Part shown: one piece after another, positions 13,165-43,812 of the stretch
Numbering within the stretch: the first letter of the stretch is position 1
How the letters are laid out: every line of letters starts with the position of its first letter
NCBI RefSeq assembly: GCF_004352845.1
Contig: NZ_SJRX01000006.1
Location: 62,001-126,000, forward strand
DNA: 64,000 bases
Reading direction: 5' to 3'
Source of the DNA: Luteimonas terricola
GTDB taxonomy: Bacteria; Pseudomonadota; Gammaproteobacteria; Xanthomonadales; Xanthomonadaceae
Translations under genes and position numbers: made by a program
Notes under the pieces: generated by a model
What the model was told of the DNA's origin: nothing
The model's database searches: none
Seen by the model: only the letters and a program-made list of their open reading frames with translations

Positions 13165-13411
13165 TTCCCCTGCAGTGGGGAGAAGCTGGCTCCGATCTGA
13201 AAGACCCCGCAGCAATGCGGGGTTTTCTGTGTGGCCTGGGGGGTCCCGGCCACTACGGGGCTCCGCGCTGGCGGGTGCCAAGGCCCTTGAGGACGAAGTC
13301 AAGGAGGAGGCGATGGACGCAAGGCCATCGCCGGGGGACATGAGTCCTCAAGGGCCTTGGCACCCGACGCCCCGTATCAGCGCCGCGCTCTTTCTCCAAT
13401 GCGAGAAGAAT
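13165..13411 (-). repeat. Composite palindromic repeat, copy A
   Basis: This fills most of the 356-base gap between sodA and the FKBP gene. Its core is a perfect 22-bp inverted repeat, 13273-13294 against 13344-13365, containing CCAAGGCCCTTGAGG. Inside lies AAGTCAAGGAGGAGG, an 8-bp hairpin (GGCGATGG 13309-13316 with CCATCGCC 13325-13332) and CCGGGGGACATGA. The outer right flank, read on the minus strand (TTCTTCTCGCATTGGAG then GCGCGGCGCTGATACGG), matches the left flanks of copies B and C, so this copy is inverted relative to them. TTCCCCTGCAGTGGGGAG at 13165-13182 resembles the other family end. No protein gene is visible in the gap. Confidence 0.85.
13205..13226 (+). terminator. Intrinsic terminator after sodA
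   Basis: CCCCGC (13205-13210) pairs with GCGGGG (13217-13222) around AGCAAT, followed by TTTT. It lies inside the left flank of repeat copy A, so the repeat may supply or share the terminator. Confidence 0.75.
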
Positions 13412-31126: not shown

Positions 31127-31424
31127 TTTTTTCCGATTGGAGGGAAAGCGCGGCGCTGATAGACGCGGGCGCCGGGTGCCAAGGCCCTTGAGTGCTCATG
31201 TCCCCCGGCGCTGGCCTGCGGCCATCGCCTCCTCCTTGACTTCGCTCTCAAGGGCCTTGGCCCCCGGTGCGCAGCAGTACGCGGTGGCCCGGGAGCAAAA
31301 GCCGGGCATCGTGCGTACTCCAGCCGAAGCCGCGAAGGCCTCCCGGCCGCGGCGGGGCCCTCCAAGTCATAGCGAAGACGCAGACACTCCTTGTCGAAAT
31401 CCCTTCCCCGCAACCGGGAGGAGA
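31127..31424 (+). repeat. Composite palindromic repeat, copy B
   Basis: This occupies most of the 366-base gap between murA and the convergent DUF3108 gene. The left end TTTTTTCCGATTGGAGGGAA (31127-31146) leads through GCGCGGCGCTGATA to unit 1: arms 31174-31192 and 31247-31265 (18 of 19 bp pair), enclosing CATGTCCCCCGGCG, a GC-rich hairpin and CGCCTCCTCCTTGACTTCG, the complement of copy A's interior. Downstream only the right half of unit 2 remains (31329-31348, GCCGCGAAGGCCTCCCGGCC), followed by a stretch like copy C and an end with TTCCCC...GGGAGGAGA. No coding potential is evident. Confidence 0.85.
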
Positions 31425-43375: not shown

Positions 43376-43404
43376 GCCCGCGCCTCACGGCGCGGGCTTT
43401 TTTT
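43376..43404 (+). terminator. Strong intrinsic terminator after the EF-hand gene
   Basis: GCCCGCGCC (43376-43384) pairs perfectly with GGCGCGGGC (43389-43397) around TCAC, followed by seven T. It abuts the left end of repeat copy C. Confidence 0.92.
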
Positions 43405-43812
43405 GGTTCTTCTCCCAACTGAGGGAATGGCGCGCCATTGATACAGCGCGTGATACGGCGCGGGTGCCGGATGCCAAGGCCCTTGAGGACTCATGTCCCC
43501 CGGCGCTGGCCTTGCGGCCATCGCCTCCTCCTTGACTTCGCCCTCAAGGGCCTTGGCACCCGGTGCGCAGCAATACGCGGTGCCCCCACGGGCAAAGCCG
43601 GTATCCCGCGCGGCTGCAACAACGCCGAGCCCCGTCGTGGCCGGGAGGCCTTCGCGGGGAAGTAAAGGAGGAGGCATCCGCCGCCAGGCGGATGCCGGGG
43701 GACATGAGCCGCGAAGGCCTCCCGGCCGCGGCGGGGCCCTCCAGATCACGGCGAGGCGTAGCGAGCAGACACTCCTCGTCGATACCGTTTTCCCTGAGTT
43801 GGGAGATGAACC
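43405..43812 (+). repeat. Composite palindromic repeat, copy C, with terminal inverted repeats
   Basis: A 408-base element in the 510-base gap between the EF-hand gene and the convergent sigma-factor gene. Its ends (43405-43427 and 43790-43812) are inverted repeats matching at 21 of 23 positions (GGTTCTTCTCCCAACT... and its complement). Inside are unit 1 (arms 43472-43487 and 43543-43558, perfect 16 bp, TGCCAAGGCCCTTGAG) and unit 2 (arms 43639-43657 and 43709-43727, perfect 19 bp, GGCCGGGAGGCCTTCGCGG). The units lie in opposite orientation with respect to the AAGGAGGAGG core. Nothing else was seen in the gap. Confidence 0.85.

Follow-up and report, generated by a model that had tools for sequence, protein, structure and literature searches.

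The window analysed here, a stretch of 64,000 nucleotides from Luteimonas terricola, contains at positions 43405 to 43812 (copy C) a whole MITE-like mobile element of 408 bp, which runs from terminal repeat to terminal repeat and is delimited by this repeat pair, by similar ends on other copies and by an empty orthologous site in a second Luteimonas genome, G003. The left terminal inverted repeat, GGTTCTTCTCCCAACTGAGGGAA (43405 to 43427, plus strand), shares its first 22 bases with the right end of an ISL3-family element found at locus L289, while the right one (43790 to 43812), reading GGTTCATCTCCCAACTCAGGGAA on the minus strand, resembles the left end of the same ISL3-family element. On direct reading, a terminator-like hairpin with its T tract (43376 to 43404, plus strand) belongs to the upstream gene, and the element begins right after this T tract; a similar hairpin and T tract occur at the empty site of G003.

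Inside the element lie two mutually inverted units, each composed of an outer stem, an internal loop and an apical hairpin: unit 1, of type Y (43465 to 43565, minus strand), and unit 2, of type Z (43631 to 43735, plus strand). The covariance model R1, whose own alignment includes both of them, scores these units at 78.1 bits (E 3.1e-15) and 82.7 bits (E 2.6e-16), respectively. As single strands, under DNA parameters, they fold at -40.0 kcal/mol (z -9.2) and -47.0 kcal/mol (z -8.3), with 0 of 200 shuffles as good in either case. The arms of the two units are unrelated but each set is complementary to itself. Thus, on direct reading of the plus strand, the unit 1 sequence TGCCAAGGCCCTTGAG (43472 to 43487), the 3' arm of this minus-strand unit, has its exact reverse complement at 43543 to 43558, the 5' arm; the 5' arm of unit 2, GGCCGGGAGGCCTTCGCGG (43639 to 43657), is matched in the same way by its 3' arm at 43709 to 43727. 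The apical hairpins are also unrelated, and what both units have in common is the internal loop, GAAGTM-AAGGAGGAG / CGGGGGACATGA. A motif search of the window placed the conserved 5' side of the loop, AAGGAGGAG, at 43525 to 43533 (minus strand) in unit 1 and 43665 to 43673 (plus strand) in unit 2, and the conserved 3' side, GGGGGACATGA, at 43491 to 43501 (minus strand) and 43697 to 43707 (plus strand). The sequence-only reading had described stems that change between the units of copy C yet stay complementary, and internal hairpins that differ while AAGGAGGAG and GGGGGACATGA are kept; both descriptions hold at both units.

Four such units exist in the window, with one AAGGAGGAG and one GGGGGACATGA apiece. 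The former motif occurs 4 times, against a mean of 0.15 in shuffles, and the latter, with up to one mismatch allowed, also 4 times, all exact, against a shuffle mean of 1.00. The two further units are both of type Y, at 13267 to 13371 (plus strand, 80.2 bits with model R1) and 31168 to 31271 (minus strand, 83.3 bits). Near the latter, a remnant Z-type arm was observed at 31330 to 31350, and at locus L019 a chimeric unit has a Z-type 5' arm and a Y-type 3' arm; both probably reflect deletions internal to a pair, between its two units. Chimeric or damaged units were also found at L349 and L360.

The genome to which the window belongs (G000) is rich in these units. Exact core matches number 77, against 0 for a reversed control pattern, and matches to the covariance model 88 (E up to 0.001); since many contigs end no more than about 250 bp from a core, the unit count is possibly a minimum. 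When 25 Y/Z pairs of this genome were aligned in one orientation, the Y and Z arms were near-constant and the outer flanks mostly shared. The stems therefore recur within the genome as types Y and Z, spread together by the MITE of about 408 bp, and local units prove little. The covariation that had been claimed for copy C must be divided accordingly: the complementary stems are there, but two units alone, belonging to recurring types, are no evidence of it, and the local two-type pattern is the effect of a MITE. Moreover, an A.G mismatch is present in 24 of the 39 Y hairpins of G000 (the commonest Y hairpins), which indicates that recent copies drift and that local copies are not visibly policed. 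As a general caution, covariation should not be read from two repeat types within one genome.

As regards the outer shell, an 8-bp target duplication is typical of ISL3 elements. Among the 25 elements of G000 and G003 with both terminal repeats, the T-rich or A-rich orientation is alike on both sides in 23, and the 8-bp flanks agree at 7 or more of 8 positions in 9 (swap control mean 2.3, P 0.0005); they are exact in 3 and absent in 2 (0 and 1 of 8), and those of the window copy agree at only 5 of 8 positions. The orthologous site of G003 is empty, with 97 bp between the genes, and that of a third Luteimonas genome, G036, holds a pair in the opposite order and without terminal repeats. A relative of the same genus, G029, carries at L289 an element of 1309 bp whose two ends both resemble those of the window element, whose 407-aa protein matches DDE_Tnp_ISL3 (PF01610, E 1.5e-69) together with the ISL3 helix-turn-helix and zinc ribbon, and which is flanked by an exact 8-bp duplication, CAACTTTT. 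The ends of the 25 elements are identical to those of this element at 37 to 45 of 48 positions, and a search of G000 for the ISL3 transposase (PF01610) gave no match. Given the matching ends, the 8-bp duplications, the empty site and the autonomous relative, the most fitting reading of the window element is that it derives from an ISL3-family element, is non-autonomous and carries the unit pair as cargo. More generally, the Y/Z pair in Luteimonas was shown to be carried by a non-autonomous ISL3-family element, dozens of copies of which lie beside terminator T/A tracts, an example of a structured site turned transposon cargo.

Outside Luteimonas, none of the Burkholderiales pairs listed in the end comparison has an ISL3-type shell; among the pairs compared, end similarity clearly above shuffles was restricted to the Luteimonas loci plus L095 and L098. 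Other arrangements were seen in passing. In Caldimonas (L365, L368-L370) a longer block is shared around the pair, extending about 25 nt to the left and 36 nt to the right in L368-L370; this block, with ends weakly similar by eye, is possibly a different mobile shell. L275, in G003, has both ISL3-type terminal repeats within 121 bp, a length that leaves no room for a unit pair; one end bears a T tract and the opposite end an A tract. In G029, around position 1467 of L291, a second ISL3-family element, with the end GGTTCATCGCTGAATACCG, starts right after AAGTAAAG of unit-like sequence, which suggests that it was inserted into a unit.

The unit itself is about 102 nt long. A variable outer stem of about 21 pairs is followed by G.A, C-G and A.G steps and then by G-C and C-G pairs, leading to a highly conserved internal loop rich in purines, in which GAAGTM-AAGGAGGA faces GGGGGACATGA. 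Beyond it the apical hairpin is again variable, and in 36 of 62 units it ends in a C(GNA)G triloop. A scan of public genomes with the core pattern returned at least 111 stretches, mostly from Burkholderiales; some other betaproteobacterial and Xanthomonadaceae records (Luteimonas, Pseudoxanthomonas, Lysobacter) were among the matches listed, and L106 and L162 are chance matches. The Burkholderiales arms are unlike Y and Z, yet complementary. With the covariance model R1, built from 62 units, matches were found in 116 of 250 genomes from the family of Hydrogenophaga pseudoflava (Burkholderiales; 16 candidates scored per genome) and in 4 of 369 genomes sampled across the class of the window's organism (10 candidates scored per genome, strict filters), 3 of which, including G000, are in its family. 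Deeper scoring of 7 carrier genomes outside Luteimonas gave 2 to 25 matches each.

Regarding their arrangement, the pattern finds one inverted pair and nothing else in 50 of 114 loci and a lone unit in 58, a few of the 114 being chance matches (L106, L162, L166, L168); by model, both-strand matches are present in 60 of 100 loci. Wherever units of the 114 loci are close neighbours, they are inverted (55 of 55 cases), with their 5' sides facing and a core-to-core distance of mostly 100-120 bp; at other loci, G066 has a close ++ pair and G358 a --+ triple, both exceptions. Several similar pairs per genome occur in Luteimonas, Caldimonas and Ramlibacter, and in Hydrogenophaga elements are found at shared loci of two or three species. 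The sole conserved neighbourhood noticed is that of pccB- and pccA-type genes, which have a unit or pair between them in 5 of the 6 loci holding both genes, all of these loci having been fetched for holding a unit; the intergenic cases are L087, L093, L120, L134 and L163, from different genomes, and L123 has both genes and none between them. Other repeats and structures were also met with: in Pseudoxanthomonas (L388, L390, L393, L396) a GTAGGAGCCGGTCTTGCCGGCGACCG-type REP-like sequence lies in or near the element, and the L388 copy apparently has its core split by it, as would result from insertion of a classical REP into a member of this family; at L062 (1438-1631) a pair of oppositely oriented xanthine riboswitch aptamers (RF03054) is separated by about 80 bp. 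In the open literature, with the terms used, no paper was recognised as describing these pairs.

The test of covariation was based on 163 units with an exact extended core, reduced to 62 with less than 70% identity in the 5' arm. The alignment was composed of 60 of these (L087 and L094 were omitted for their odd hairpin length) and the two units of copy C, to which the two Luteimonas rows, L002 and L044, are similar. Units were picked by exact core and arm pairing was no criterion, so the way of choosing them accounts in part for the core being invariant among the aligned rows; core counts are, furthermore, biased upward, since the fetching of a locus needed at least one exact core. In the 62 units, the pairing rate over the 24 outer positions is 0.859, which falls to 0.515 with 3' arms swapped (maximum of 1000 swaps, 0.554) and to 0.392 when slid by one. 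In the alignment (33 pairs in 62 sequences), 90.5% of 2005 cells are paired, against 59.5% in shuffled and about 40% in slid controls, and 602 cells are changed on both sides, against 179 in shuffles. The covariation score was 0.767, compared with 0.193 for shuffles and 0.116-0.145 for slid registers. RNAalifold, with no structure supplied, recovered the outer stem, with double changes in 26 of 27 pairs, and the apical hairpin at its base only. Of 8 units folded individually, one (L093) departed from the consensus fold, with a z of only -3.0.

Shared loci of three Hydrogenophaga species allow the same question to be asked position by position. In 17 unit comparisons, 276 positions were unchanged, 49 had changed on both sides and were still standard pairs, 47 had changed on one side and were standard, and 36 were others, 23 of the latter coming from two comparisons in which units were damaged or mismatched. 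The three-way comparisons are not independent, and one comparison, contributing 12 of the 49 double changes, has 52% arm identity and is possibly not orthologous. The check that had been proposed, covariation above phylogenetic background, thus came out positive both in the score and in these compensatory changes, the background being controlled by shuffles, slides and shared-locus comparisons only. Selection on structure, as suggested at the outset, is supported by covariation far above the controls and coming from other genomes; the first reading is right in essence, on grounds that lie outside the window. What is conserved, as was shown, is base pairing and not arm sequence, on the unit's own strand and whichever way the neighbouring genes run. 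The family is widespread and supplies natural compensatory pairs for testing.

On balance, and with a little better than even confidence, we regard the unit as a strand-specific folded nucleic-acid site whose working form is folded single-stranded DNA, REP/BIME-like and served by a putative reader protein. The strand would fold while exposed in replication, repair or transient melting, and the internal loop may then serve as the binding or cleavage site of a protein from the host or a mobile element, by analogy with the reading of REPs by TnpA-REP. An inverted pair would present one readable unit on either strand, and in Luteimonas the mover would be an ISL3 transposase acting in trans, now or formerly. 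This reading of folded single-stranded DNA is preferred because of the G.T:A.C asymmetry on the unit's own strand in sense and antisense units alike, the C(GNA)G loops, the absence of signs of small-RNA genes and the avoidance of divergent gene pairs. A structure clearly selected on its own strand regardless of gene direction offers a rare handle on single-stranded DNA folded in vivo. As for the reader, no candidate protein was found among Y1 transposases and nine clusters of neighbouring ORFs. The neighbour-gene test compared 880 crude ORF products from 168 loci all against all, and members of nine of the 25 clusters listed were scanned; they correspond to an ABC transporter, a carboxyl transferase, a propionyl-CoA carboxylase of alpha type, an AMP-binding enzyme, an aldehyde dehydrogenase, a short-chain dehydrogenase, a histidine kinase, LigB and a 130-aa ORF without Pfam match, with no transposase among the nine.

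Unlikely, though deserving of attention, is the possibility that the units act as RNA, both strands being transcribed by convergent read-through or pervasive antisense transcription, so as to form an exonuclease barrier, an RNase target or a protein site at mRNA 3' ends. The genomic context fits this, since 88 of 93 elements follow the end of a gene, in convergent or tandem arrangement. Regions between divergent genes, whose avoidance was counted above for the DNA reading, hold 5 of the 93 elements and make up 43 of the 203 intergenic regions in these loci (P 0.0003; the 203 include those holding elements, and gene calls followed a crude ORF heuristic). These counts cover L055-L165 minus L106 and L162, nine gamma/Xanthomonadaceae loci and L340-L379, and are restricted to elements for which two neighbouring genes were called within 600 bp. 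Stem cells, moreover, show G.T far above A.C, as RNA helices do, G.T making up 8-10% of them, and an RNA helix would show the same. The core is slightly better kept in sense units (core-perfect in 40 of 49, against 27 of 45 antisense; P 0.024), a hint of either an RNA role or sampling bias, and AAGGAGGAG resembles a Shine-Dalgarno sequence. However, in tandem contexts the G.T:A.C ratio on the unit's own strand is 95:3 for sense units (n=46) and 73:3 for antisense units (n=43), 5 of 94 tandem units being left out of the count for loss of the stem register. The antisense units are thus structured opposite to the genes' mRNA strand, and their outer pairing is like that of sense units (23.0 against 22.5 of 26, P 0.19). 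As selection on the genes' mRNA would be expected to reverse the G.T excess in antisense units, read-through mRNA of the neighbours alone is insufficient. Signs of transcription are also scarce: -10-like boxes upstream of 61 units are no better than in shuffled sequence, and one of the 61 is followed by a T run, by which a small-RNA gene with its own promoter and terminator is disfavoured, and no Rfam match at a unit reached the gathering score in the whole window, the element and 7 loci. GNA loops are described as extraordinarily stable DNA mini-hairpins in the available part of PMC4686876, which favours DNA over RNA.

Still less probable, in our opinion, is a selfish palindromic DNA without host function, that is, a MITE-like family whose units are needed for their own movement only. 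The repeated occurrence of like pairs within genomes of Luteimonas, Caldimonas and Ramlibacter would be expected of it, as would the orthologous site that is occupied, empty or in opposite order across three Luteimonas genomes; yet in Luteimonas the movement is explained by the outer ISL3-type repeats and not by the units, and the shared Hydrogenophaga loci with their compensatory changes, as well as the recurrent pccB-pccA-type position (in loci fetched for holding a unit), speak against it. Finally, covariation might be made by mutation, through template switching or quasi-palindrome correction that copies one arm onto the other, long near-perfect palindromes being known substrates of template switching. 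The sequence-only reading had allowed for spread by this route, but as the sole cause it is disfavoured and we hold it to be very improbable. The non-Watson-Crick steps near the stem foot are kept (A.G in 52 of 62 units and G.A in 46 of 62), and arm-to-arm copying would not leave such steps; nor is the excess of G.T over A.C stem cells (107:22) expected from a strand-symmetric correction.

The reading of the units as folded single-stranded DNA invites comparison with several known systems. Where ISL3-family MITEs are concerned, the outer shell of the window element is similar in its terminal repeats and 8-bp T/A-tract duplications, which match the relative's ISL3 element, and differs in its cargo, a structured unit pair present also in Burkholderiales. 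Integron attC sites are folded single strands with variable stems and few conserved positions, among them the R/L boxes; the units share the folded strand and variable stems, but their conserved sequence is the internal loop, and no GTTRRRY attC core was seen by eye in the consensus of the 62 aligned units. The Burkholderiales-1 motif (Weinberg et al. 2010, PMC2864571), for which the table entry lists no Rfam accession, is alike in taxon and, judged on that entry alone, could possibly be an earlier sighting of the units. The Beta-proteobacterial repeat element, BRE (Hot et al. 2011, PMC3110155), is reported in the section available as being of about 90 bp, with an average of 69% GC in Bordetella, mostly intergenic, and present in Comamonadaceae, Bordetella and Azoarcus in tandem arrays of variable number; that section describes no structure. 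By description only, it overlaps with the units in taxa, size and GC, and differs in forming tandem arrays where the units are inverted pairs or singles (with the exceptions of G066 and G358). BRE might be related to the units and, if identical, part of the family was named in 2011.

The closest resemblance is to REP, BIME and REPIN sequences with their TnpA-REP (RAYT) proteins, which are likewise intergenic palindromes, often in inverted pairs. REPs avoid divergent gene pairs, as the units do. The available part of PMC8266576 describes REPs as strand-specific folded single-stranded DNA with a conserved irregular part. The units differ in their length of about 102 nt, against 20-50 for REPs, in the long variable outer stem around the internal loop, and in having before the apical hairpin AAGGAGGAG (62 of 62 rows, selected by this motif) in place of the GTAG of REPs, it being a matter of definition whether the GGAG part of AAGGAGGAG is counted as a REP-type tag. 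Mobilisation by RAYT was rejected: no Y1 transposase was found in G000, and, although 13 of 20 carrier genomes have Y1 transposases (PF01797), a unit lies within about 1.5 kb at 0 of 15 such loci. The units therefore work most like REP pairs, and fail as members of that group on the GTAG tag and the linked transposase. Taken further, and with somewhat less than even confidence, they may represent a new class of paired strand-specific folded single-stranded DNA elements common to Burkholderiales and Xanthomonadaceae, distinct from REP/RAYT, attC and IS200/IS605, whose internal loop would be recognised by a putative DNA-processing or chromosome-organising protein.
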